Source of the DNA: a virus
IMG/VR virus record: IMGVR_UViG_3300043433_000128
Span: 1 to 60,147 of that record
Strand: one strand, 5' to 3'
DNA length: 60,147 nt
The notes under the pieces are model-generated. The model was not told where the DNA came from. It saw only the letters and a list, made by a program, of their open reading frames with translations, and did not search any database. Positions 10,807 to 60,147 of the stretch are shown here, piece by piece (within the stretch, counting starts at the first letter, position 1; each line of letters begins with the position of its first letter). Position numbers and translations under genes: made by a program.

Positions 10807-13302
10807 TTAGAATCCGCATTGTAACCATGTATTACCTCCATCAGAAGAGTATTCTAAAGATATTCCGGCAGATCCAAATGTACCTCCACCACCGGTACTA
10901 ATGTTAGCATTACCTCCATCAGAAGAGTATTCTAAAGATATTCCGGCAGATCCAAATGTACCTCCACCACCGGTACTAATGTTAGCATTACCATACATTG
11001 TTACGAGTACGTTATCTACTGCATTAAATTGAGATGGAGAAGCCGATATTGTCTGTGGCGTTGTTGTAACTGTAGGGAATGTTCCTGTAAAGTTGTTACC
11101 ATTAAAGCTACATCCAGCAGAACCACCATTTATGTAAGTGTTTGATGATAATCTAAATCTAACAACTGCACTAACACCAGGTCTAACTCTCATTGTACCA
11201 GAACCTGATATTGATATTGGGCTACTGCTTCCAGATCCAGTATAAGTGAAAGTGCCTCCATTATTACCTTGATTTACAAGGTCAGTATATACAACAGCGG
11301 ATGCATTAATATACGCAAATATTTGATATGTTCCTCCTGGATTATATTGACCAAAATTATTATCTTTGATGATATAGTCTATAGTTTTTCCATTTCCATT
11401 AAGATCTATTACCGAATGTTCAGTGAATTGGCCAACACCAGTATTTGCTATAGTTGTAAATGAAAAATTAGATAAACTTGGGCTAATAAACTTATAGAAA
11501 TGATCTGACGCCTTAATTCTATATTTAATATATCTAACGCTACCATTAACTGCAGTTACAGTGCCTGTTGTCATTAATGTTCCGGCTGAATTAGGATCAG
11601 TACCTAAATCATACACTTCAAATACTGAACCATCAGTTATTCCATCAACCGATGCATACGATACAGGAGTTGGGTATGTTACTGTGCTTTCTGGTATTAA
11701 TTCTACGTCGTTAGTGCTATCCCATGTAATTCCTCTCATTGCGCCAGGTGCTCCATGCGCTGAAACTTGTACTGTTAATGTAAATGTATTTGGGTAAGTT
11801 CCTGAACCCATAACAACATTTGTTACTGAATATCCAGTACCTGCTGTAAATCCAAGTGCGCTTAATTGTGTCGCGAAATAATAACCAGCAGCTGCAGTTA
11901 CTTGAATAAATGTTGTATATGAACTTCCTTGTGTTGCAGGTCCATATGCTATTTGCTGTGTTGGTGAACCAGAAACTGTATTATTTAAGTCATCTACTGC
12001 ATATAAGTTATTACCAGAAGGAGCTTGATTTCCTCCCATATCTTGCCAATAACAATCTTCATCTCCTAAATAAATTATCTGAGGAAGCTTTTTAATTTTA
12101 AAAGTACCTCCTGAATATGTAGAAATTGGAGTATCTGTTGTTGCTACTGTTGAAGAAATTCCATAAACATTAGGAGCTGGATTTGTAGCACTCATGCTAA
12201 TATCTGCACCTCCAACTAAGTGGACGTCATTATTAAGTACGTTTGCTGAACCTTGACTGTTTAAATTTATAGTACCTTGATTATCTTGTATTGTATATGA
12301 GAATGAGTTTAGATCCGGAACTGTATGTTGTAACTGTGAATTTGATCCTAACCAAGTTTTTCCATTACAAATATACCAGCCAGCATAATCATTAATTCCT
12401 TTACCAACACTTATTTTTAAAATGTCATCAATATTTGCTAAAGTTACTGTTTCTGAATTTACAAAATTTGAATTGTTGCTAAAAACAGACGGTAAAATCG
12501 AAACTATAGTTCCATAAGGTACTACTCCTCCAAGTTCATCGATACTTTTAAATACAACAGTACCATTATTATCGGAAGCTACTGCAATTTTATCCGCAGC
12601 TGCATTTGCATTTCCAATTTTTAATTGACCGTTAATTGTAACAGGTCTGTCAAATTCAACATCTCTATAATATGTAATACTAGCATCGCTTATGTTTAAT
12701 AATTCATTTCCAGTTGTGTTGTCAACGAAAATGTGTTTTTGAGCATGCCAAATAAGTGAAGTGTTTGCAATATTTTGGAATCCCATCGTAAACTTGTTGA
12801 TGGAATTTTGAGTGTCGTTTTCCATTCTAAAGTTGAATGAATTTCCAACAACATCAGAACTTGTAAATCTTAAATTATGTAAATAATTTGTTCTTCTATT
12901 AATAATCCACTGGTATGGTAATTGACCAGAAACTTGATTTTGGCCAACACCATATTCAGGATCAGTACTGATAAATCCAATACTAACTACTGGCGGATGT
13001 GTACTAATTGCTGGATTATGTATAGGTAAGATAGTATCTACAGGAACTGCTCCACCACCTGCTATATTTTTCCAATATGCTGTATTATTTGCTCCTTGAG
13101 TTCCTTCAGGTCCAGTTAAACCGATAGGACCTTGATAACCTTGAGCTCCTGTAATTCCAGTTGCTCCTTGATCACCAACAGGCCCTGTAAGTCCCATTGG
13201 TCCACCTCCATTAGCGACTAACTGATCAAAATTATAATTAATTTTGTCAAGCTTAATATTATCACTATCAGATAAATTTATCTGTTTCAGGTTTACTATC
13301 AT
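10807..13302 (-). CDS. Collagen-like, Collar-domain short tail fibre A
   Basis: The N-terminus (KINYNFDQLVANGG) leads into a Gly-X-Y collagen-like stretch (about residues 36-70, GPMGLTGPVGDQG and on). The middle (about 260-345) has a phage tail Collar-like domain: PYGTIVSILPS, then GWYICNGKTW, then TVPDLNSFSYTI, as in gp12-type short fibres. The C-terminal half is a chain of Gly/Thr/Ser-rich beta segments, ending in a perfect 26-residue tandem duplication (NANISTGGGGTFGSAG and on). Total length is 831 aa. It is paralogous to the fibre at 13337-15661 in its N-terminal and Collar parts. Its tip is a likely receptor-binding region. Confidence 0.75.
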   Translation of the reverse strand: MIVNLKQINLSDSDNIKLDKINYNFDQLVANGGGPMGLTGPVGDQGATGITGAQGYQGPIGLTGPEGTQGANNTAYWKNIAGGGAVPVDTILPIHNPAISTHPPVVSIGFISTDPEYGVGQNQVSGQLPYQWIINRRTNYLHNLRFTSSDVVGNSFNFRMENDTQNSINKFTMGFQNIANTSLIWHAQKHIFVDNTTGNELLNISDASITYYRDVEFDRPVTINGQLKIGNANAAADKIAVASDNNGTVVFKSIDELGGVVPYGTIVSILPSVFSNNSNFVNSETVTLANIDDILKISVGKGINDYAGWYICNGKTWLGSNSQLQHTVPDLNSFSYTIQDNQGTINLNSQGSANVLNNDVHLVGGADISMSATNPAPNVYGISSTVATTDTPISTYSGGTFKIKKLPQIIYLGDEDCYWQDMGGNQAPSGNNLYAVDDLNNTVSGSPTQQIAYGPATQGSSYTTFIQVTAAAGYYFATQLSALGFTAGTGYSVTNVVMGSGTYPNTFTLTVQVSAHGAPGAMRGITWDSTNDVELIPESTVTYPTPVSYASVDGITDGSVFEVYDLGTDPNSAGTLMTTGTVTAVNGSVRYIKYRIKASDHFYKFISPSLSNFSFTTIANTGVGQFTEHSVIDLNGNGKTIDYIIKDNNFGQYNPGGTYQIFAYINASAVVYTDLVNQGNNGGTFTYTGSGSSSPISISGSGTMRVRPGVSAVVRFRLSSNTYINGGSAGCSFNGNNFTGTFPTVTTTPQTISASPSQFNAVDNVLVTMYGNANISTGGGGTFGSAGISLEYSSDGGNANISTGGGGTFGSAGISLEYSSDGGNTWLQCGF
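10831..10992 (-). repeat. Perfect 78-bp tandem duplication in fibre A
   Basis: Two identical 78-base copies lie at 10831-10908 and 10909-10986, followed by six more matching bases. The unit is 26 codons, so the frame is kept. No base differs between copies, suggesting a recent duplication or an assembly artefact. Confidence 0.97.
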
Positions 13303-13316
13303 TTCTTATTCTATAT

Positions 13317-13332
13317 TTAGATTATATATTCC
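13317..13332 (-). promoter_or_regulatory. Putative late promoter of fibre A
   Basis: The minus strand reads GGAATATATAATCTAA, 15 bases before the ATG at 13302. It is nearly identical to the site before the 15665-20182 gene (20201-20216). Confidence 0.55.
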
Positions 13333-13336
13333 TTTT

Positions 13337-15661
13337 TTATGGACACTGGAATGGCAGTGTGATTGTACCATACGTTTGATCTATCGCTGAAGAATGTACT
13401 GCTTCGATTCCCATTCCATTTTCATAGATTCTTCTAAATTTTAAAGAAGATCCAGGTGCATTTTGACTAATAATATTAACAAGTGGTGGAGTAACTGGAT
13501 TAAAGCTTCCAACGTTTGGTAACCAATTTTGATGTACAAAAATTCTGGATCCTTCAACATATACGGACCAAAGAGCTACTGTAATATCATAAATAACATT
13601 AACGTCATCAGTTTCAACATAACAAGTTTTCCAATTTGAAAATGAAGGTATCACGTTACATGCTGCATGTCCACTAGTACTTGATGTTGTAAGAGGATTT
13701 GAAGGATTTGGGAATCCAGCGTTAAACATTAAAATATATTTAGTAACTAATGTTTCACCTTGAAAACTAGAACCATCCCAATATCTTCTAACACCAGGGC
13801 TTCCAGATGTTACTTCACGATACCAACCTTCTAATAGAATAAAATTATTTTGATCTAATATTTGAGTTGCAGTTTCAAACGACGTAGTATTTATTATATA
13901 TGTTGATAGCGAACCATTCTGAGAACCACTAATTGCTAAATCGGTAATTTCTCCATTTAATTCCTCGATGTTTTCATGGTAAACTAAATCAACGTAAGTT
14001 GATGTTAAAACAGAACATGTTGTCGGCAAACTAAAAGTAGCAGTTACATTATTCCATTGTCTCCAGACCTTCTGTCCACTTTGAGAAATTCTCATATAAA
14101 AACCTGAAGCTGCAAAATTAGTTGTTCCTGCATTATATAAGTATACACCAGGAAGAGTACCTGAATTTTCCCAATTTGTAATTGCTCCTCCATTCCAAGA
14201 ATATTGAATTGTAGTCGGAGTAATAATATTACAAATTTGAGTTCCTCCTCCGTTTGTTACCCTATAAACTAAATCAATATTAGTTGTTACTGGTGGCGGT
14301 GGCGGTGCACTTCCATCAGCATTAACCCATGTTAAATCATTTCTTTCTAAATAAACAATATGAACCATTCTACTTGCGTATAGTTCTACATTACCACCTG
14401 AAGTGCCTAAGTCTATTGTATCATTTGGTGTAGGTGATGTGTTATTATCTTCCCATACATTCGTGAACTGTGTTGTATATTCACCAACACCACTATATAC
14501 CGCTTCCATCGATATATCATAACCTCCAATTATTATTGGGGCATTATCTCCATTAGTAACCAACTCTTGTCCTCCTCCATTTGAAGCAATCGTATAATTA
14601 AAAGAATTTAAGTTCGGTGTTAAATACGATGAAATATTTGTGTCAAACTGCCAAGTTTCTCCATTACATAAATACCATCCTTCAAAATCAGTACCTATCT
14701 TTCCTCTACCGTATTTATTTTTCAGTGGTGGATTTCCAGGATCTTGATTTACAGTTTCATTTAGATAAAAGTTGTTTGAATTAAAATCCTCTTCTCTAAT
14801 TGAAATAATCGAACCTATTGGAAAGTTTTCAAAAACACTTTTCTTATTTTTCCAATCAGTTGTACCGTTAGTATCTGAAGAAACTAATATAAACCCCTCT
14901 GTAGGAGTTTTATCATATATAAATGTATCGTTTGATCTGAAATGAGCTCCAGAATCTACTATTGCTATTGATTGTTGCTGGCCACCTCCATAATTATTTT
15001 GACTAATTTTTATTAGTGAATACTTAAGGTCATGCGCAAATTGAGGATTTCCTAGATTTCCAATTGTATTTAATTTAGTATTTTCAGCAAGATGTATTAA
15101 TTCAAATCCAGCATCAGAAGTTACAAATTTACCAATATGAAGTTCTACCTGTCCGTTATTATTTAAAAGTCTCCAGTCAGAAACTTTACCATCATGTTGT
15201 AATCTTAAGTTTATTTTTGGACTTAAAGGATCGTTAGTTACTTTAATATTTGAAAGCATCGAATATTGATTGTAATCAGCAACACCAGTATATAATGGAT
15301 CTGTTGAATCAATACCAACTCTCATTACTATTGATGAATATTGAATTGGCGTTAAATCGTTTTTCTTTGGGAATAAATATTCAACATCATTTGTAGTATC
15401 ATTATAATAAATCCAATCATCAGGTGCAAATTGACCCTGTGGCCCTTGATTTCCTTGAGGACCAATATAACCTTGAGGACCTTGAACTCCTGTTGGACCA
15501 AACGGACCATCAATACCAGCATATCCCTGAGGACCTGGAATTCCACCGTTTGACAACTGAGTAAAATTAAAATTAATCTTATCAATCTTGTCTTTAGACC
15601 ACCAGGCAGTACTGTTTGGATCTAGATCACTCTTAAATATTTCTTTAATATTAATAGCCAT
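13337..15661 (-). CDS. Collagen-like, Collar-domain short tail fibre B
   Basis: This 774-residue fibre has the same layout as the next gene: N-terminal DKINFNFTQLSNGG, a Gly-X-Y stretch (about residues 38-78, GPQGYAGIDGPFGPTG and on), and a Collar-like region with FPIGSIISIREEDF, GWYLCNGETW and LTPNLNSFNYTI (about 275-355). After that the two diverge: the C-terminal 350 residues here show unrelated strand-rich repeats with YREVTSG and WRQWNN motifs, including a proline run PPPPPV near 440. Gene B ends just before the promoter of gene A. It is likely a receptor-binding or baseplate short fibre. Confidence 0.75.
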   Translation of the reverse strand: MAINIKEIFKSDLDPNSTAWWSKDKIDKINFNFTQLSNGGIPGPQGYAGIDGPFGPTGVQGPQGYIGPQGNQGPQGQFAPDDWIYYNDTTNDVEYLFPKKNDLTPIQYSSIVMRVGIDSTDPLYTGVADYNQYSMLSNIKVTNDPLSPKINLRLQHDGKVSDWRLLNNNGQVELHIGKFVTSDAGFELIHLAENTKLNTIGNLGNPQFAHDLKYSLIKISQNNYGGGQQQSIAIVDSGAHFRSNDTFIYDKTPTEGFILVSSDTNGTTDWKNKKSVFENFPIGSIISIREEDFNSNNFYLNETVNQDPGNPPLKNKYGRGKIGTDFEGWYLCNGETWQFDTNISSYLTPNLNSFNYTIASNGGGQELVTNGDNAPIIIGGYDISMEAVYSGVGEYTTQFTNVWEDNNTSPTPNDTIDLGTSGGNVELYASRMVHIVYLERNDLTWVNADGSAPPPPPVTTNIDLVYRVTNGGGTQICNIITPTTIQYSWNGGAITNWENSGTLPGVYLYNAGTTNFAASGFYMRISQSGQKVWRQWNNVTATFSLPTTCSVLTSTYVDLVYHENIEELNGEITDLAISGSQNGSLSTYIINTTSFETATQILDQNNFILLEGWYREVTSGSPGVRRYWDGSSFQGETLVTKYILMFNAGFPNPSNPLTTSSTSGHAACNVIPSFSNWKTCYVETDDVNVIYDITVALWSVYVEGSRIFVHQNWLPNVGSFNPVTPPLVNIISQNAPGSSLKFRRIYENGMGIEAVHSSAIDQTYGTITLPFQCP

Positions 15662-31904: not shown

Positions 31905-32735
31905 TTAAGAATGCATCATCCAGTCGGTACCTTCGTCTGATTTAATTTCTTCGATTAATTTGTCAAGTTCATCTTCGCCTAGACCTTTAATTAAATCTGG
32001 GTTAACTTGAATATTTCCAGGAAGCGTAAATCCAAATATTCCTAGTTTTTGTCCTAAAGAAATTTTGATTTTTGCTGCACAATATCTAAAGAAAGCCTCA
32101 TCTTGGAAAAGTGCACATTCTGGGATTGTTTCATAAACATTAAGAATTACATTTTTCTTAGGAGATTCTCCGGTAAATCTTAACTCATGTGTTAATTGGT
32201 TATAGTTATAACTTAATGGATTCTTCATGATTTGACGTGCTAAATCAAAGAAACTCTCGTTAATTACAAAATATTGTAAATTTTCAGCAGCAGCTCCAGT
32301 TTTAGTTCCACCATACATTCCTCCCATTAACATTCTTTCAATCGCAAAATCACCTTGAGTCCAGTTAATATCTTGAGATCCTCCCCAGTTAGAACCAACT
32401 TCTCCTAATCCATAAACTGAATACACTTCATTCCCTCCAGTTACTGGATCCATTCCAGGTAAGGTAAAACTTCTTGTCTTTTTAAAATGATCTGTTGAAA
32501 ATAATTCGATCGGTAAAACCATAAAGTTTTCTCGAACTGAATATTCATAGTTTTTATAGAACCATTTTTTAGCTCTTTTAACTATATTTTGAACTTCACT
32601 TTTAGGTAAATTCATTGGAATCATACAAGATCCTGTAATTTCGTCAGCTAATTCGTTAACAAACTCATTAAAACATCCACTATCCCATGTTGGATCCACT
32701 AAAGAATTTTGACCTCCTACTATTATTTCGCTCAT
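31905..32735 (-). CDS. Virion protein, possibly neck protein (gp13-like)
   Basis: The 276-residue protein has an N-terminal helical segment (SEVQNIVKRAKKWFYKNYEYSV, about residues 46-67), a central Gly-rich loop region (GGMYGGTKTGAAAE), a beta part, and an acidic C-terminal helix (GLGEDELDKLIEEIKSDEG). The N-terminal helix with a Trp-Phe-Tyr face is reminiscent of T4 gp13-type neck proteins, but the match is weak. It lies just before gp25. A virion component is likely; the gp13 assignment is a guess. Confidence 0.55.
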   Translation of the reverse strand: MSEIIVGGQNSLVDPTWDSGCFNEFVNELADEITGSCMIPMNLPKSEVQNIVKRAKKWFYKNYEYSVRENFMVLPIELFSTDHFKKTRSFTLPGMDPVTGGNEVYSVYGLGEVGSNWGGSQDINWTQGDFAIERMLMGGMYGGTKTGAAAENLQYFVINESFFDLARQIMKNPLSYNYNQLTHELRFTGESPKKNVILNVYETIPECALFQDEAFFRYCAAKIKISLGQKLGIFGFTLPGNIQVNPDLIKGLGEDELDKLIEEIKSDEGTDWMMHS

Positions 32736-32750
32736 CTTATTATTTTATTT

Positions 32751-34043
32751 TTATATTGCCTGTGATTTAACGATTTCGACATCATTAAATTTTGCAAGTT
32801 TTTTATCAAACATACCCTCTCTGAAGATACCACCGTTCATAGTTCCTTTAAATGTTCCTTTACCATATACATAGCAATCGCTTGCAATACAAGATCCATG
32901 AACATAGGATCCATCAATTTTTGAACTGTTAATCTGTGTTGATGAATAAAAATTACAATAATGAATATCTGATCCATTAACGTCACATCCATACATATCA
33001 CACTCGGTGAATTCTCCTCTTAGAAAACAATCTACAAATTCATAACCTCTAAGATCTACACAATATTCTAATCGACCGTTTTTGACTTGAATTCTACCAG
33101 AATCCGAATCATAGTTAATATGTCCTTTAGAAAGATCGCCATGTGTAAATAGTTTCATCACTCTTTCTTTTACACTTTGCCAATAAAGATCGACTACTTT
33201 TGCATCTTCTTTTAAATCAACTGTAAATTTAACATCTTTCCAATTTTTTGAAATTGTTTTCCAATCTTTACGCGCATCAATAATTCTCTTATTTTCTGAA
33301 ATTATCTTTTTAAGCTCGATCGCATTTAATGAAGTGAAATCGGTATTTTCAGTTGATTTCCATAATTGAAGTAGGAACTGGTCAACTAAATGCAATATTG
33401 TAGTTGTTTTCTTTTCCCAATCTGCACCACCAACATATCTAAATTCAAGATAGTTTTTGTGTCTTTTATCGAAATTGATACCATAATATTTAGTATCTGG
33501 GTAAATAAAGTTTTGTTGGTTAATATAATTTCCATCAAAGAAATAAGTATCTTCTTTTGGAAGTACAAATTTGATAGATTTAGCATATGCTGAATTTTCT
33601 CTTTTTGGAAAGAACTTAAATACCTGCTCTTCATTAAAATCAAGAATAAATTTAAGAACATTCATTTTTGAAATTCTGTATTTATTCTCTATTTTAGATT
33701 TATCAAAAGAAAGGTTTAAGTGGATTGACGATCTGTCATTTGTATAGCCATTTTCTTCGATCCATTTACAAACATTGATAATCATCAATCTTGCTGCAAA
33801 ATATGGAAGAGCACCAGTAACAAGCTCTAATAATTTGGCTCCACCCGACATGTCAGGTTCAATTTTAAATTCATCTTGCGTTACTTCAAAGTCACTATGT
33901 GCCTTGTCTTCAACATGAATCTTTTTGCCTAGTAGTTTTGCTAACTTTTTAGCAGTTTCGTCTGCACTAAAATTTGAATAGAATTCAAATTCAACACCAA
34001 CTAAGGCGTTTTGTAAAACGTTTGAATCGTTTAGGTTATTCAT
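32751..34043 (-). CDS. Amidoligase-like enzyme fused to a pentapeptide-like beta-helix
   Basis: Residues 1-215 fit the COOH-NH2 amidoligase (glutamine synthetase/GCS-like) pattern: VGVEFEF (15-21), EPDMS then LLELVTGALP (62-80), SIHLNLSF (106-113) and YLEFRYVGG (198-206). These acidic and basic positions correspond to ATP/metal and substrate sites in that fold, which joins amino and carboxyl groups. Residues about 325-405 contain repeats such as LRGYEFVDCFLRGEF and CDMYGCDVNGSDIHYCNF, like a right-handed pentapeptide beta-helix. It has its own late-type promoter and lies in the tail block, which suggests virion-related modification. Substrate unknown. Confidence 0.6.
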   Translation of the reverse strand: MNNLNDSNVLQNALVGVEFEFYSNFSADETAKKLAKLLGKKIHVEDKAHSDFEVTQDEFKIEPDMSGGAKLLELVTGALPYFAARLMIINVCKWIEENGYTNDRSSIHLNLSFDKSKIENKYRISKMNVLKFILDFNEEQVFKFFPKRENSAYAKSIKFVLPKEDTYFFDGNYINQQNFIYPDTKYYGINFDKRHKNYLEFRYVGGADWEKKTTTILHLVDQFLLQLWKSTENTDFTSLNAIELKKIISENKRIIDARKDWKTISKNWKDVKFTVDLKEDAKVVDLYWQSVKERVMKLFTHGDLSKGHINYDSDSGRIQVKNGRLEYCVDLRGYEFVDCFLRGEFTECDMYGCDVNGSDIHYCNFYSSTQINSSKIDGSYVHGSCIASDCYVYGKGTFKGTMNGGIFREGMFDKKLAKFNDVEIVKSQAI

Positions 34044-34943: not shown

Positions 34944-34972
34944 AAAAAAACCCAGATCCGAAAATCTGGGTT
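34943..34972 (-). terminator. Rho-independent terminator after the S1 gene
   Basis: On the minus strand AACCCAGAT pairs with ATCTGGGTT around a six-base loop and is followed by a T-run. Confidence 0.9.
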
Positions 34973-35001: not shown

Positions 35002-36213
35002 TTATAGTTTTAAGAAAACTTTTCTTGTATCAACTTCAATTCTTATAACCTGAACGGTGATGTTATCATTTTTTGAAATTGAATTAATTTCAATACCATC
35101 AGGTAATTCAGATACGTGTAATAATCCAACAATACCATCTCCAATGTCAACGAATACTCCGTAATCCTTAACAGATTTTATAGTACCTTTAACTTCCACT
35201 GGGAATGATTTGTATTTATTTGCAATCTCCTTCCATGGATCTACTGTTTCAACATACTCTAATTGAGTTAATGTGATTTTCTCATCAGTGATGATTTCTT
35301 TTACAATAAAAGTAATCTCGTCACCTGGATTAATTTCTCTTGCTTTATGTTTCTTCGCAAATTCAGGGTTTAAGTCATTTGCATGGATCATTCCAGTTAA
35401 ACAACCATCAAACTCAACGAATACTCCGTATTTAGCAGAACCTGTAACGTTTCCAGTTTTAGTTTCTCCCATATTACTTCTAAGTTCTTCAACTTTACCA
35501 GGGATCAGTGCTTGTAAGTATTTTCTATGTGAAACGATTACTGTACCTCTTTCTGGAGAGTAACTCATAGGAACTACATACATTTGAGTGTTCAATACTG
35601 ATTCAAAGTCTGCAAGTTTGTTAATTCCTGCAAGAGAACCTGGCATGAAACAGTCAATACCTTGTACATTTACGAAATAACCTCCATTTGGAATCATTCC
35701 AGTTACTGTTCCAATATAAGCAGTGTTTTGTGTTTCTGCTGATTGTAACATTTTTCTTAATGCCGCTGCTTTGATTCCAGCTTCAACTGAACCTACGATA
35801 AATCCTCTTGAGTTTGAGCTTCTATCTGCAACGATTTCAACTGCTAATTTCTCTCCTGGGATTAATCTTGCTTTAGAGATTTTCGACTCTCTATTTACAT
35901 CAACATATACCATTTCTCTGTGGCCAATATCGATTGAAGCCCATTCTTGGTCAACTGAATATACAGTACCTGTATGAGTTTCTCCGATAACAACATTAAA
36001 TACTTGTGGTTCTGTTGATTCGAATCTTTCCATTAAATCAAGTAATTCTTGAGCATATGGAGCTCTTGAATAAACTTTAACACCAGCTGGCGCCTTAATG
36101 TGTAAATTTGGTTTTCTGAAGTTTGTTGGGCAATCTGCCAAATGTGCATCCCAATCAAAATCGGGATTTCCTTCAGTTGGGAATTGTTTTTTTGTTTTAA
36201 CGCCTTGTGACAT
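35002..36213 (-). CDS. rpsA: Ribosomal protein S1 homologue with four S1 domains
   Basis: Four S1/OB repeats are visible: about 77-145 (GETHTGTVYSVDQEWASIDIG), 165-232 (YIGTVTGMIPNGGYFVNV), 250-318 (KTGNVTGSAKYGVFVEFDG) and 338-403 (VKGTIKSVKDYGVFVDIGDG). The last two keep the canonical RNA-binding strands. At 403 aa it is shorter than six-domain cellular S1. It should bind mRNA and possibly the 30S subunit, influencing which messages initiate. It has its own late-type promoter and a strong terminator, so it is a single-gene unit inside the tail block. Nothing resembles a virion-assembly motif. It could instead be an RNA-binding protein without ribosome contact. Confidence 0.88.
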   Translation of the reverse strand: MSQGVKTKKQFPTEGNPDFDWDAHLADCPTNFRKPNLHIKAPAGVKVYSRAPYAQELLDLMERFESTEPQVFNVVIGETHTGTVYSVDQEWASIDIGHREMVYVDVNRESKISKARLIPGEKLAVEIVADRSSNSRGFIVGSVEAGIKAAALRKMLQSAETQNTAYIGTVTGMIPNGGYFVNVQGIDCFMPGSLAGINKLADFESVLNTQMYVVPMSYSPERGTVIVSHRKYLQALIPGKVEELRSNMGETKTGNVTGSAKYGVFVEFDGCLTGMIHANDLNPEFAKKHKAREINPGDEITFIVKEIITDEKITLTQLEYVETVDPWKEIANKYKSFPVEVKGTIKSVKDYGVFVDIGDGIVGLLHVSELPDGIEINSISKNDNITVQVIRIEVDTRKVFLKL

Positions 36214-36239: not shown

Positions 36240-36255
36240 TTAAGTTATATATTTA
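36240..36255 (-). promoter_or_regulatory. Putative late promoter of the S1 gene
   Basis: The minus strand reads TAAATATATAACTTAA, 26 bases before the ATG at 36213. Confidence 0.55.
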
Positions 36256-36259
36256 TTTT

Positions 36260-38185
36260 TTAGAAAGTTGTTGGGCTTACACCAACCATCGGAATCGGTG
36301 GACCAGAAGGTACTATGAATCCACCAAGATATAAGAATTTAACTCCTAATAAATGTTTTGCACATGCAACTGCAACTGCAGAAGCAACAGACTTTGAGGC
36401 TACTGGCGTTAGTGGTTGCATTTTAAATCTCTTACCAGTATTCCATGCTTTTCTCAAATCATTAGCAAGGGCACTTTTATTACCATAAGATATTGGCGCA
36501 TATTTTCCTCCTAGTGGTGGAACAGAAGTACATGGTGTTATTGGCGGTGCTGGTTTAAACGGCTGGACTGCAGTGCTTTTCCAATAATCAATAATAGTCT
36601 GAGCCATTAAATCATATCCATCTCCTCCCTGTGAATCCTCTTCTAGATTTCCAGTCATAGAGTTACCCCATTTTCTTAGAAGGTCATACCACTTATTTTT
36701 TTCAGCAAGGTATCTTAAAACTTTACGTGTGTTTCTTTTTAATTCTGCATTCTCATAAATAAATTTATCAAAAAAGCTGGTACCACTATTATCTTTTTGT
36801 ATGTTTCTATCAGAATAGCCTTCCATTCGTTCATCTATTTCTTTAAAGTAAACAAATTTACAAATATCGGCAGCATTCAACCAATTAGGTATTCTGGTCT
36901 TATCATCAATATGTTCCTCTTGGAAGATGTACTCATTTATTGGATTTGGTATATTACTGGCCTTTGGTAGTCCATATAATTTTTTAATTGCATCTTCTTT
37001 TTTAAGAGTTTTATCTTCTGATAGAATTTCTTTAATTAAATCACTTTCTGACAGAGAGTTCTTATATTGATTCTCGTATTTTTTAAGTTCTGATTTAAAA
37101 CCATCTTCAATATCCTGCTTAGTAATTCCAAATACACTGGAAGAACCTTGTTTATTAAATTTTTCGATCAAATCATTTCTATAAGATTCAGCCTTTGCAA
37201 GTGCTTTTTTATGAGCAACACTGTCTTTTATATCATCATAAGTATTTCCTTTTACCCCTAGTATTTCAAATACTTTTGACTTTACTTTTTTACCAAAAGC
37301 TTTATTGTGACCGATATCTAGGCGATCTACCCATTCCCCATATTCCGGAGATCCATCATTTTGATAAACAACTCGAAGTGCGATATTTTTAGCACGTTCA
37401 TCATCAGTCATTTTAGGAATCGAAGGTCTTTGTTTTTTATCAACAAAAGGATCTTTAACCTCTTCAATAACAGTGACTCCTTCTGGTTTGATTTCAAGAA
37501 TTATCGTCTTGTTTATCTCTTTTAATAGGGTAGTCCCGTCAGGGCCATAAACGCCCTTAAAAATATAATTATAAGTTCCGGATTTGGTTGGTGCAAGTAT
37601 GTGTAGTACATTGTCTGTCGCAATCTGGATTGGTTGATCCACTCCATTGATAGAATATAATAATTTGTAGTTAATTCCTTCAGTAAATCCGGAAATTGTC
37701 ATGGTGACATATTTTTCAGGTTCTCCAGGCTTTGAAGCATCTTCTAATAAATTATAGTCAATTTCACCAATAACCGGTGGTTTCTCTTCTATTGGACATG
37801 TTGAAGGAAAGAATGGATAAAATATAAACTTTTCTAAGTTATCTTTATTTTTTTCAGTCCATTTCTCAAGTTCACAATAAGTATCGAAATTAGTATCTGG
37901 GCCTGGTGCCTTTTCAAACATGTCAGCATATTTTGAATTAGAGAATTTGCTTTCAAAATCTACTTCCTCTTCATCATAAATTTTCTTGAATGCTTTTTTA
38001 AAACCCTCTTCAAGAATTGGTTTTTGACCAGATTGATGAGTGTTTCCGAACATTGTTTGCGAGGTTTTTACGCTATTAAAATATTCACCAGCAAGAAATA
38101 CAGCAAATTCATCTATACTTGATGCACTCAAGCTAGATAATTTTGCAGATACTTTGTTAATAAAAATTGGCCATTGAGCAGGCAT
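36260..38185 (-). CDS. Baseplate/hub-associated structural protein, unrecognised
   Basis: The 641-residue protein directly follows the gp5-like spike gene. The first 120 residues look helical (KVSAKLSSLSASSIDEFAVFLAG); residues about 135-240 hold an Ig-like beta region (EKYVTMTISGFTEGINYKLLYS); residues 250-520 are charged and helical. The C-terminal 60 residues are hydrophobic and Pro/Gly-rich (LLGVKFLYLGGFIVPSGPPI). No domain is recognised. It may be a hub or tail-tip protein given its neighbour and late promoter. Confidence 0.62.
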   Translation of the reverse strand: MPAQWPIFINKVSAKLSSLSASSIDEFAVFLAGEYFNSVKTSQTMFGNTHQSGQKPILEEGFKKAFKKIYDEEEVDFESKFSNSKYADMFEKAPGPDTNFDTYCELEKWTEKNKDNLEKFIFYPFFPSTCPIEEKPPVIGEIDYNLLEDASKPGEPEKYVTMTISGFTEGINYKLLYSINGVDQPIQIATDNVLHILAPTKSGTYNYIFKGVYGPDGTTLLKEINKTIILEIKPEGVTVIEEVKDPFVDKKQRPSIPKMTDDERAKNIALRVVYQNDGSPEYGEWVDRLDIGHNKAFGKKVKSKVFEILGVKGNTYDDIKDSVAHKKALAKAESYRNDLIEKFNKQGSSSVFGITKQDIEDGFKSELKKYENQYKNSLSESDLIKEILSEDKTLKKEDAIKKLYGLPKASNIPNPINEYIFQEEHIDDKTRIPNWLNAADICKFVYFKEIDERMEGYSDRNIQKDNSGTSFFDKFIYENAELKRNTRKVLRYLAEKNKWYDLLRKWGNSMTGNLEEDSQGGDGYDLMAQTIIDYWKSTAVQPFKPAPPITPCTSVPPLGGKYAPISYGNKSALANDLRKAWNTGKRFKMQPLTPVASKSVASAVAVACAKHLLGVKFLYLGGFIVPSGPPIPMVGVSPTTF

Positions 38186-38196
38186 AATATACGTTT

Positions 38197-38212
38197 TAGA
38201 AATTATATATCC
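38197..38212 (-). promoter_or_regulatory. Putative late promoter
   Basis: The minus strand reads GGATATATAATTTCTA, 11 bases before the ATG at 38185. Confidence 0.5.
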
Positions 38213-38931
38213 TATTTACCTTTTTGTTGGTAGTCCTTGTGTGATGATTTTAAGCTACTAACTGTTGAAGGTGTTTTAGCAGCAGGAGGTCCTGAAGGAC
38301 CAACTCCAGTTGGGTGAAAATGGTTTTTATAATCATCTAATAGTTTATTCAACCATTTTTCTAGAGAAACTCCTCGAACTGCAGGTTCAGATTCATCTTC
38401 GCTACCCTCTCCAGTATTACTTAAGAATATGTTTCCAGAATCAAGGAATATCTTTTCACTCGTAGATATTTTAATAAAACCTTTTTCGTCAATTTGAATT
38501 AGGGGTCTTTCTTTTGCTCCACTTCCTCGAGTAATTACAAGTCCGTCATCTGGTGAGTGATAGATTCTAATGTTTCTTACCTCATCATATACTAATGAAA
38601 CAACATCATGTGCTGCGCCAGATGATTCTAGAACATCTTTCTTTAATGCTTTATTTTGATTGATTTGAAACCAATATTCTGGATGATATATGTTACCATT
38701 GTCGAATCTTACAGCGACAATAGTCCCAATGTTTGGTGTATTATGAGCACCGACAAAATCACGATTCATTGGAGTTGCCCATGGAATTGCATCATTCGGT
38801 AATTTATCAAACTTACCGAAAACTTTAACACGGCATCTTCCAAGAAACTTAGGGTCAGCATTATCCACAACCTCACCGATCCAGTGGGTTTCCCTAATAT
38901 TATCTTTGTCTAATTCTTTATCTGTTGCCAT
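38212..38931 (-). CDS. 5: gp5-like baseplate spike protein without lysozyme domain
   Basis: This is the central membrane-piercing spike under the hub. Residues 16-90 form the gp5-type OB fold (HWIGEVVDNADPKFLGRCRV, then IPWATPMN), close to the T4 gp5 N-terminus WWIGVVEDRMDPLKLGR. T4 gp5 continues with a lysozyme, but here residues about 105-175 go straight into beta-prism-like strands (IQIDEKGFIKISTSEKIFLD). H204-F-H206 in NHFHPTGVGPSGPP may bind a metal ion at the tip. At 239 aa it is much shorter than T4 gp5 (575). It is coupled to the upstream gene by TAATG. Confidence 0.83.
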   Translation of the reverse strand: MATDKELDKDNIRETHWIGEVVDNADPKFLGRCRVKVFGKFDKLPNDAIPWATPMNRDFVGAHNTPNIGTIVAVRFDNGNIYHPEYWFQINQNKALKKDVLESSGAAHDVVSLVYDEVRNIRIYHSPDDGLVITRGSGAKERPLIQIDEKGFIKISTSEKIFLDSGNIFLSNTGEGSEDESEPAVRGVSLEKWLNKLLDDYKNHFHPTGVGPSGPPAAKTPSTVSSLKSSHKDYQQKGK

Positions 38932-49921: not shown

Positions 49922-50194
49922 TTATTGATTTAAAGTTTCTAATTTAGGGTAACGATTACAGATATCGAAGATTCTGATAATTTTTGATGCTAATTCTGTT
50001 GTTAATTTTAGGGCTTCAATTTGAAGATCTGCATATAAATATCCATCAAATAAACCGTAAAGTTTGTTTTGAATATTGAAAGATGCTTCATCTTCGATTT
50101 CTTCTGAGTACGATACTTCTTTAATTAAAGAAAGAATTTCGAATCGAGTTTCATCATTCATATTTTCGTGTCTGTCAAAATTTGTGTAAGTCAT
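49922..50194 (-). CDS. Small acidic hypothetical protein
   Basis: The 90-residue, mostly helical and acidic protein (RFEILSLIKEVSYSEEIEDE) has no recognised motif. It starts a unit after the terminator at 50231-50259 and is preceded by copy B of the shared promoter-like element. Confidence 0.62.
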   Translation of the reverse strand: MTYTNFDRHENMNDETRFEILSLIKEVSYSEEIEDEASFNIQNKLYGLFDGYLYADLQIEALKLTTELASKIIRIFDICNRYPKLETLNQ

Positions 50195-52036: not shown

Positions 52037-52294
52037 TTAGTCGCCCGCCATTATGACAAGGTCTTTCAATTTCTTAAGTGTTTCGCATTTTTCGTATTCT
52101 TCGAGCGCAACAAAATACTCGATTAGGACATCAATGAATTTACTTCTTTGTCCGATTCCATGTGGAATATCGATTGTACTTTTACCATCTTGGTATACAA
52201 CAAACCTATTAACGGTTTTTGTAAAGTTGCGGGTAATTATGTAGTAGCTGGATCTCATCAGAGAGTCTCTTTCCTCTCCTGTTATATTTTCCAT
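52037..52294 (-). CDS. Small protein with UVR-like C-terminal helix (paralogue 1)
   Basis: The 85 residues end in FVALEEYEKCETLKKLKDLV, a variant of the UVR motif (two antiparallel helices in UvrB/UvrC and some chaperone-associated proteins). Two other proteins in this block share the same ending (52585-52842 and 53927-54220). The N-terminal parts differ, with a strand-rich KTVNRFVVYQDGKSTIDI here. UVR domains bind partner proteins, so it may be an adaptor. It lies directly after phoH's upstream hairpin leader. Confidence 0.6.
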   Translation of the reverse strand: MENITGEERDSLMRSSYYIITRNFTKTVNRFVVYQDGKSTIDIPHGIGQRSKFIDVLIEYFVALEEYEKCETLKKLKDLVIMAGD

Positions 52295-52411: not shown

Positions 52412-52594
52412 TTATTCGTCCTGGAATGATTGTCTATATTTTGCCTTGCTTTTTTCTGATCTTTTAGTGACAGAAGGTTTTACATATTCCTCTCTTTCCC
52501 TAAGTTCTTTAAGCTGTTTGGTGGCAAAAGTTTTGTGCTTTAAAGTTTTAAGCGCCTTTTCTATATTTTGATTATCTACTTTAATTATAAGCAT
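52412..52594 (-). CDS. rpsU: Ribosomal protein bS21
   Basis: The 60 residues read like a Bacteroidota bS21: MLIIKVDNQNIEKALKTLK at the start, then ELREREEYVKPSVTKRSEKS and KAKYRQSF. The start is the ATG at 52594, because a TTG-type extension upstream (to 52630) lies in the previous gene and is not bS21-like. Tyr53 falls near the position of the Tyr reported to touch the anti-Shine-Dalgarno in Flavobacterium ribosomes. Phage-encoded bS21 is known from other phages. It could replace the host bS21 and change initiation. Its leader has no Shine-Dalgarno sequence. Confidence 0.88.
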   Translation of the reverse strand: MLIIKVDNQNIEKALKTLKHKTFATKQLKELREREEYVKPSVTKRSEKSKAKYRQSFQDE

Positions 52595-52842
52595 GAAAGT
52601 TTGTCTATTATTTTTTTGAGTTCTTTGCACTTTTCATATTCTTCTCTTTCTTTAAAGAAATTCAGTACATTTTGAACACCTTCTATTTTATCTTCAACTG
52701 GAGCGTTATGATTTAATGCTCCCATCTTGTCTTTGATTATAGAACTATATATTAGTTCCATCATATCTTCTCTTGAAGATTCATGTAACTTTTTAATGAA
52801 TTTTGTTTCGTTGTTTTCGTACTCGTCTAAATCATCCATCAC
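52585..52842 (-). CDS. Small protein with UVR-like C-terminal helix (paralogue 2)
   Basis: The 85 residues start with an acidic helix (MMDDLDEYENNETKFIKKLH) and end FFKEREEYEKCKELKKIIDK. The C-terminal EEYEKC helix is shared with 52037-52294 and 53927-54220. It overlaps dnaJ by ATGA at its start and the bS21 ATG at its end, so all three are likely translated together. UVR-like helices act in protein binding, so partnership with the DnaJ homologue or ribosome is possible but unproven. Confidence 0.65.
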   Translation of the reverse strand: MMDDLDEYENNETKFIKKLHESSREDMMELIYSSIIKDKMGALNHNAPVEDKIEGVQNVLNFFKEREEYEKCKELKKIIDKLSCL

Positions 52843-53915: not shown

Positions 53916-53938
53916 AAAAAAGGAGCTTAGGCTCCTTT
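53916..53938 (-). terminator. Rho-independent terminator overlapping the stop of the 53927-54220 gene
   Basis: AAAGGAGC pairs with GCTCCTTT around a four-base loop and a T-run follows on the minus strand. The stop codon TAA at 53927-53929 sits in the loop. Confidence 0.85.
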
Positions 53939-54220
53939 GTTAATTTCGTCTAATATCTTTTTAATCTTAGAACATTTTTCATATTCCTCTAATTCTACAA
54001 ATATAGCTAACATATCATTCAGCGTATTTACCAGAGGTGCGATGCTAATTCCTCGATAAATCATCTCATGAATATCAATTCCATTTTTGATTATCATGTT
54101 ATAGTTTTCGTTTGCTAGCTTAAGTTTTAAATCATATAATATTTCTTGCATACGAGTATCTTTTAATATTGATTCAATGTCGAATGTTTCTTCAAATCCT
54201 TCGTAAAAATCGTCTTCCAT
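53927..54220 (-). CDS. Small protein with UVR-like C-terminal helix (paralogue 3)
   Basis: The 97 residues begin with an acidic region (MEDDFYEGFEETFDIESIL), and end FVELEEYEKCSKIKKILDEI, the third copy of the EEYEKC helix. Its stop codon lies within the terminator hairpin. It is preceded by copy C of the shared promoter-like element. Function unknown; see the paralogues. Confidence 0.62.
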   Translation of the reverse strand: MEDDFYEGFEETFDIESILKDTRMQEILYDLKLKLANENYNMIIKNGIDIHEMIYRGISIAPLVNTLNDMLAIFVELEEYEKCSKIKKILDEINKGA

Positions 54221-59239: not shown

Positions 59240-60147
59240 TTATTTTTTAAGTAATTCAATTTCTGCTTTTAATTCATTGATTGCTTGAATCAATAAAGGT
59301 ACGATTTTTTCGTATTGTACTGTGATGTAATTTTCTCCAGTTTTAGAATTTCCATTCTCGTCCATATCAAATGGTGCTGGTTTAATTACTTCAGGTAATA
59401 CTTCTTGAATCTCCTGAGCGATTACTCCGACTTGTTGTCTATAATCATTATATCCAAACTCTTCTGCTAATTTGTTTTGAGTATAAGATACACCTCTTAT
59501 TTTTCCAACTTTTTCAAGTGCATTTTCGATAGGTTCGATATTATCCTTAAGTCTTCTATCTGAATAATATGCGATGATATCGTTAGTTGCAACAATTTGA
59601 CCAGCAACGTTAGTAGGACCAACGCCAACTCCTAAAGAGTTAAAATGCCAATTGGCACCCCAACCTCCACCACCAGCAGGACCTGTTGCTCCTGTCGCTC
59701 CAGTAGGACCCGCAGGACCTTGAGGTCCAGTAGAACCAGTTGATCCAGTAGGACCAGCAACTCCTTGGAAACCTTGTGCTCCAGTTGAACCTGTTGATCC
59801 AGTAGATCCAGTTGCTCCGGTTGGACCAGCAACTCCTTGGAAACCTTGAGCTCCAGTTGCACCAGTTGCTCCATTGGTTCCATTAGTTCCAGCAGCACCA
59901 GTAAATCCTTGGAAACCTCTAGCACCCTGAGCTCCAGTAGCTCCAGCGGCTCCAGTTGAACCTGTAGCTCCTTGCGCTCCAGTAGCTCCAGCGGCTCCAG
60001 TTGAACCTGTAGCTCCTTGCGCTCCAGTTGCACCGTTAGTTCCATTGGTTCCAGCAGCACCTTGCGCTCCAGTTGCTCCTTGAGCTCCAGTTGCTCCATT
60101 GGTTCCATTAGTTCCAGCAGCACCAGTAAATCCTTGGAAACCTCTAG
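59240..60147 (-). CDS. Collagen-like tail fibre with S74 chaperone (5' end off window)
   Basis: Only the C-terminal 302 residues are in the window; the frame is open to the right edge. About 160 residues of uninterrupted Gly-X-Y triplets ([19 protein letters not shown]-type, Thr/Ala/Ser/Gln-rich, few Pro and no Lys) are followed by [19 protein letters not shown] and an intramolecular chaperone domain of the S74 type: [27 protein letters not shown] and [14 protein letters not shown]. The Ser of SDRRLKDNI is the usual self-cleavage site, with the conserved Lys and Asp following. It should trimerise and cleave. It is the first gene of the likely fibre-modification block. Confidence 0.9.
59930..60023 (-). 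repeat. 45-bp tandem repeats in the collagen-like gene
   Basis: Two copies of a 45-base unit (15 codons, five Gly-X-Y triplets) lie in tandem, and longer similar blocks recur nearby: the stretch at about 59868-59922 recurs at 60093-60147. This explains codon-level similarity and possible repeat-number change. Confidence 0.85.

Follow-up and report, generated by a model that had tools for sequence, protein, structure and literature searches.

Bacteroidota ribosomes select start codons without the help of Shine-Dalgarno (SD) pairing by a mechanism still under debate, with ribosomal protein bS1 as the usual suspect, and the locus described here raises the question of whether a phage may supply the ribosome with a bS1 of its own. 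The window, a linear IMG/VR virus record of 60 kb (60,147 nucleotides) which, given its form and size, may be a fragment, encodes a protein with S1 domains and, elsewhere, a bS21. In huge phages, rpS1 has been reported together with rpS21 in genomes where SD sequences are rare, and the idea of translation redirection was proposed, with a true rpS1 being hard to confirm (Al-Shayeb 2020, PMC7162821). S1 domains are frequent in RNA-binding proteins and were left out as ambiguous in another survey (Mizuno 2019).

A four-domain S1 protein related to bacterial bS1

The initial annotation described a four-domain S1 protein encoded by the phage, and this description is borne out by the exact ORF (Table 1), Pfam S1 matches above cut-off, an alignment to bS1 domains D1-D4 and a four-barrel structural model. 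Compared with Escherichia coli bS1, the protein aligned by phmmer over bS1 residues 22-341 (4.7e-39), and with the family profile (PDB) the alignment spanned D1-D4 end to end (E = 1.1e-52). AlphaFold predicted four β-barrel repeats at residues ~79-142, 166-228, 251-316 and 339-402, preceded by short helices, with a mean pLDDT of 76 and a pTM of 0.45, the latter making the packing of the domains unreliable. Foldseek ranked highest, for this model, the bS1 chains of two 30S complexes in mRNA delivery, 9gut (E = 2e-25) and 9guv (2e-22).

Homology to bacterial bS1 (rpsA) extends over the docking and RNA-binding core, D1-D4, while D5-D6 are absent, giving four domains where six are usual in Bacteroidetes bS1 (PMC6705787). 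Identity to bacterial bS1 is only 23-26%, and the scores fall below the curated bS1 equivalog cut-offs (136.7 against 524 bits for NF004952 and 135.9 against 577 for TIGR00717). Judged from its sequence, the protein is a phage bS1 paralogue by homology and not a bS1 equivalog by curated score. Across 24 phage sequences, D2 is the most conserved domain (78.8% mean pairwise identity), with Y179 and F189 invariant, and the RNA-face residues of D3 and D4 are invariant in the phage S1 alignment.

In a maximum-likelihood tree, all 32 sampled phage S1s fell on one side of a 100/100 branch and the bacterial S1s on the other, in a tree with long branches and only 8 bacterial rows. Huge phages of 462-735 kb belong to the phage clade, as do the Prevotella Lak phages. 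Pairwise identity of the window S1 is 23% to the bS1 of Flavobacterium johnsoniae and 25% to that of E. coli, nearly equal distances, these two sharing 44%, so that a recent capture from a host does not explain the gene. The Lak S1 (L108 and L111, from Prevotella Lak phages) can be aligned with residues 12-307 of the window S1 and no further, and may therefore have three S1 domains, not four. GenBank matches labelled as phage (Acinetobacter phage MD-2021a contigs and MT83xxxx "Bacteriophage sp." records) resemble bacterial chromosome with rpsA and were excluded from the phage S1 set, some being reused as bacterial references; L112, L113 and other MT83xxxx records appear to be such chromosomal sequences and are likely misfiled. 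The contig L083 (ONCO01000010.1), binned as an Erysipelotrichaceae MAG, encodes homologues of the window phage S1 and of its baseplate genes, and so probably comes from a phage and was misbinned.

Table 1. Features of the S1 locus and associated genes in the window
Feature	Coordinates	Strand	Description
Amidoligase_2-like protein, downstream of S1	32751..34043	-	Pfam PF12224, 28.5 bits; synteny
Intrinsic terminator 3' of S1	34949..34972	-	Hairpin recurs in relatives
Phage S1 gene	35002..36213	-	ORF of 403 aa, ATG start, four S1/OB domains
Domain D4	35008..35202	-	Residues 338-402; canonical S1 RNA-binding type
Domain D3	35260..35466	-	Residues 250-318; canonical S1 RNA-binding type
Domain D2	35518..35724	-	Residues 164-232; Y179 and F189 match OB2 pocket F120/F130
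Domain D1	35788..35979	-	Residues 79-142; D95/G97/R99 equivalent to E. coli D39/G41/K43 (alignment)
Predicted N-terminal docking helix	36022..36057	-	Residues 53-64 (YAQELLDLMERF); helix 54-64 in model; YAQ
F19-x-W21 motif, N-terminal extension	36151..36159	-	Also present in two Bacteroidota bS1s
Leader element ATTAACCTTTTTAA	36224..36237	-	Conserved just upstream of S1 start
TATATAA promoter-like element of S1	36245..36251	-	32-38 nt before S1 ATG; conserved in relatives
Tail-block protein, upstream neighbour	36260..38185	-	Synteny
gp5-like baseplate OB protein (Phage_base_V)	38212..38931	-	PF04717; two genes upstream of S1
Phage bS21	52412..52594	-	60 aa; TIGR00030, 42.9 bits against cut-off 29

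S1 is a core gene of the tail module

The placement of S1 inside the tail block, as first annotated, agrees with the gp5-like baseplate protein found close upstream. At least 479 IMG/VR stretches encode S1 relatives. Among the 80 loci picked by an S1 search of IMG/VR, with S1 identity down to ~50%, the order gp5-like baseplate gene, S1, amidoligase-like gene and next tail gene was found in 80/80 wherever the contig reaches. Because these loci had been selected by S1, we repeated the search with a different tail gene (31905-32735) and recovered S1 in the slot in 70/70 loci with enough upstream DNA; this second set was drawn from the closest 80 of 488, so that it covers close relatives, and it shared some contigs with the first. 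The constancy of the slot in both searches makes S1 a core gene of the window clade. Beyond this clade, the 462-kb phage LR756500 carries S1 in the same tail-module slot, and in LR745206 and LR756502, as well as in LR756504 and LR756501, it adjoins other genes homologous to window genes. The Amidoligase_2-like enzyme near S1 is likewise kept in the tail block across the clade.

Conserved elements flank the S1 gene

A late-promoter-like site and a terminator belonging to S1 itself had also been annotated, and both recur in relatives. Of 26 S1 leaders, 23 contain the TATATAA element, where shuffled sequences gave 3.4 on average and 8 at most, and a hairpin equivalent to the terminator follows S1 in 18/25 relatives, with stems that differ in sequence yet pair in a covarying manner, such as CCCAGAT/ATCTGGG and CCCGAGAT/ATCTCGGG. 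Conservation of the promoter-like element and of the terminator means that both ends of the single-gene unit are conserved, and the S1 unit is presumably monocistronic. To judge from the structural neighbourhood, the promoter-like element would be used late. A sigma-70 promoter scan showed no excess over shuffles and was discarded. Closer to the start codon, a motif of the ATTAACCTTTTTAA class marks 18 of the 26 S1 leaders (3.5 on average and at most 9 in shuffles) and is found before 6/56 other window genes, counts that are only descriptive because the pattern was written after the leaders had been inspected; the element is possibly a translational operator or a start-site element.

A predicted Bacteroidota-type docking signature

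In E. coli, bS1 contacts uS2 through Phe5, Gln7, Phe9 and Glu10 of its N-terminal helix and through Asp39 and Lys43 of the D1 loop, while the OB2 residues Lys117, Phe120 and Phe130 contact mRNA (PMC10123108; PMC4288201). Among 24 phage S1 sequences, the Phe5 equivalent is Tyr in 23, and the equivalents of Gln7 (Gln55 in the window) and Asp39 are Gln and Asp, respectively, in all 24, as is Arg or Lys at the position of Lys43 (residue 99). The residue corresponding to Phe9, which is essential in E. coli bS1, is Leu, Phe or Met, mostly Leu, and the Glu10 equivalent is variable. Four of the five members of the uS2-docking set F5/Q7/F9/D39/K43 appear to be retained in kind, on a helix alignment that is short. 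In the OB2 pocket, the Phe120 equivalent is Tyr and the Phe130 equivalent Phe in 24/24 sequences, with Lys117 lost or variable. On the ribosomal side, F. johnsoniae uS2 retains the D188/NDD zinc pocket, and where E. coli has Phe32 it too has an aromatic side chain. For E. coli uS2 and for both F. johnsoniae proteins, bS1 and uS2, the sequences compared are those of the PDB.

N-terminal to the helix lies an F-x-W motif, with F19 and W21 invariant in 24/24 phage S1 sequences. The motif reads FNW in F. johnsoniae bS1 (9zcd, an entry that also contains the 7jil bS21 sequence) and FNW or FDW in Lak S1, and it recurs in the gut Bacteroidota-type S1 L112 (ENFDWDAF, FDWDA), which scores 970 bits on NF004953. 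It is missing in the E. coli and Acinetobacter bS1s and in the other huge-phage S1s read. Scanning bacterial genomes with the phage S1 alignment returned a single divergent contig, L083, and a pattern scan of viral contigs for Bacteroidota S1 found none, which limits the Bacteroidota comparison to 9zcd and L112. With two bacterial examples behind it, the Bacteroidota-type F-x-W docking signature is a supported lead and not proof.

bS21 is an optional companion

The best PDB match of the window bS21 is that of F. johnsoniae (7jil). According to the initial annotation, S1 and bS21 formed a possible phage system to redirect initiation; both are indeed in the window, but their co-occurrence in related phages, which the annotation had proposed to check, proved not to be obligate, and the idea of a linked pair is not supported. 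We found bS21 in 31/50 IMG/VR records of the S1 clade (21/34 plus 10/16, the 16 having been chosen by S1 or by neighbour gene, and many records being fragments) and in 4/7 S1-carrying huge-phage records; conversely, S1 is present in 5/6 named huge-phage records with a window-like bS21. In the subclade L012-L030 (L012, L015, L019, L022 and L026-L030), bS21 was found in 0/9 records, all of which have S1, and searches of LR756500 and of two circular Lak records, 540217 and 543529 bases long, did not find it either. In the three of this subclade that were read (G012, G013 and G008), DnaJ, two small ORFs and PhoH still follow one another, bS21 alone is gone and S1 is kept, and a related record carries bS21 at that DnaJ-PhoH locus. 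The absence of bS21 from an intact locus in a subclade that keeps S1 leads us to reject obligate pairing: bS21 is optional and no obligate partner of S1. Since bS1 and bS21 are in contact on the E. coli ribosome (PMC10123108), cooperation is plausible where a phage encodes both.

Neither the window bS21 nor that of the IMG/VR relatives read is preceded by an SD, and an SD-autoregulated bS21 copy was rejected. The bS21 gene of the 735-kb phage LR756501 (L122) has a strong SD (AAAGGAGG) before its ATG, which recalls the SD-autoregulated rpsU of Flavobacteriales; the window-clade leaders lack one. Around bS21 and PhoH, small proteins of 85-97 aa (49922-50194, 52037-52294, 52585-52842 and 53927-54220, all on the minus strand) have a common EEYEKC..LKK-type tail and resemble paralogues.

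Host and leader sequences

The window phage is T4-like, with UvsW, a gp32-like SSB, PhoH and a gp5-like baseplate protein. Matches to its baseplate wedge protein came from the huge phages, Lak phages, phages of Tenacibaculum and the Flavobacterium phage MaF61, and these matches, together with the affinity of bS21, point to Bacteroidota bacteria as the probable hosts. Collagen-like G-x-x repeat tail proteins are encoded at 10807-15661 (minus strand) and 59632-60123, and an ORF at the contig end looks like a collagen-like repeat read out of frame.

Neither AGGAG nor GGAGG occurs at -20 to -4 of any window gene (0/57), in keeping with the earlier annotation, which had S1 act where SD sequences are missing, and over the same 57 genes A peaks at -15 to -11. 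Leaders in F. johnsoniae are alike, with A enriched at -15 to -11, a region said to lie near bS1 (PMC6847099), and the pattern is a general Bacteroidota one. The A-rich leaders that had been attributed to late, structural genes amount to a slight excess (0.546 A in the structural block against 0.490 A), a trend only (permutation p = 0.07). With F. johnsoniae ribosomes, added F. johnsoniae bS1 lifts initiation on an SD-less mRNA ~2-fold and hardly affects rpsU (PMC9976891), a result that supports a bS1 role in SD-less initiation, not phage specificity.

A model for phage S1 and its alternatives

We consider it reasonably probable that the protein is a phage bS1 paralogue that joins the Bacteroidota 30S subunit, with docking predicted from residue conservation, and promotes SD-less initiation. 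S1 would be made from its own promoter alongside the tail genes and would dock on the host 30S by gripping uS2 with its N-terminal F-x-W/YAQ helix region and with the basic loop of D1, either replacing host bS1 or sitting alongside it. D2 would then be placed at the mRNA exit, D3-D4 would hold single-stranded A/U-rich leaders, and initiation on SD-less phage mRNAs would rise. Where encoded, bS21 would reinforce the same site, S1 being able to act without it. The model is backed by D1-D4 homology, docking-type residues, core-gene status and conserved flanking elements; low identity, the failed equivalog cut-offs, the replacement of Phe9 by L/M/F, the loss of K117 and the missing D5-D6 count against it. 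When S1 is expressed, that it binds ribosomes, that it displaces the host protein and which mRNAs it prefers are deductions from sequence. A further-reaching version, in which an ancient phage-specific bS1 builds specialised Bacteroidota ribosomes by itself via the F-x-W dock, possibly controlling itself through the leader element and with bS21 as an optional helper, is tentative and on balance doubtful.

The protein could instead work off the ribosome as an RNA chaperone, shielding late phage mRNAs from the RNases of the host by coating them or opening up their leaders, with no docking on the 30S. Extraribosomal roles of bS1 include RNA protection from RNase E (PMC10123108), the D3/D4 RNA face is conserved and the docking helix matches E. 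coli only in part; a pure chaperone, however, would need D3/D4-type domains only, yet the protein retains D1-D2, whose E. coli counterparts bind to the ribosome but hardly to RNA, with D2 changing least of all, and we regard this reading as unlikely. The same predicted docking site would also serve a decoy that takes uS2 or host mRNA, displaces host bS1 and shuts down host translation, and the missing D5-D6 could disfavour host mRNAs that need them. Such a competitor would need D1 alone, whereas mRNA-binding D3 and D4 are kept and conserved, and, phage genes being as SD-less as Bacteroidota genes reportedly are (PMC6847099), shut-off would strike phage mRNA too, making a decoy quite improbable.

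The location of the gene among tail genes would suit a component of the virion or of tail assembly, too, in which the OB folds play a structural part: the place of S1 in the baseplate/tail module is invariant, and OB folds occur in baseplate proteins too, as in the PF04717 protein nearby. The similarity is nevertheless specific to bS1 over four domains with RNA-face residues kept, the promoter-like element and terminator set S1 apart, and in 634-735 kb and Lak phages S1 adjoins other genes, so that its place is not bound to one tail partner; we judge a structural role very unlikely. Phages often carry host genes and this one is clearly homologous to rpsA, yet recent capture of a host rpsA fragment without a selected role has next to no probability and is rejected by the tree, in which the phage proteins form a single clade on a long branch from all eight bacterial S1s, and by conservation in every relative tested.

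Relation to known systems

The window protein, by the preferred reading a phage bS1 that would act on the 30S subunit, shares with the huge-phage rpS1-like proteins several S1 domains, SD-poor genomes, a possible rpS21 and the redirection hypothesis (PMC7162821). Beyond that report, the S1s of the huge-phage records, Lak phages and window clade form a single family that has docking-type residues; within the window clade, S1 has a fixed slot and is independent of bS21. With bacterial bS1 (E. coli; F. johnsoniae 9zcd), the protein has in common the D1-D4 order, docking helix region, D1 loop and RNA-binding D3/D4, and with the Flavobacterium protein also F-x-W; besides having fewer domains, low identity and sub-cut-off scores, it differs in a longer N-terminal extension. 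Cyanophage PhiMa05 also encodes a bS1, but that protein tracks the Vampirovibrionia host rpsA and its gene adjoins other ribosomal protein genes (PMC13157829); MW495066, a record of a Microcystis phage that includes rpsA, was matched by the Bacteroidota bS1 query and not by the window S1. Bacteroidetes phage bS21 is similarly a phage ribosomal protein proposed to redirect initiation in late infection (Chen et al. 2022, PMC9723584). It is a different gene, lying on the opposite strand among terminase and capsid genes, whereas the window bS21 lies on the same strand between small ORFs near DnaJ/PhoH, and window-clade S1 persists where bS21 is absent.

In the open-access literature searched, we found no paper on the phage S1 family, its slot, F-x-W or the S1-without-bS21 subclade. 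Phage S1 and the redirection idea were known earlier; a coherent S1 gene family and its Bacteroidota-type docking signature are new. A viral bS1 cut down to four domains, retained as a core gene and bearing an N-terminal signature of Bacteroidota type, is a small natural tool for the question of SD-less initiation, and phage S1 is a case of possible viral ribosome specialisation independent of bS21.
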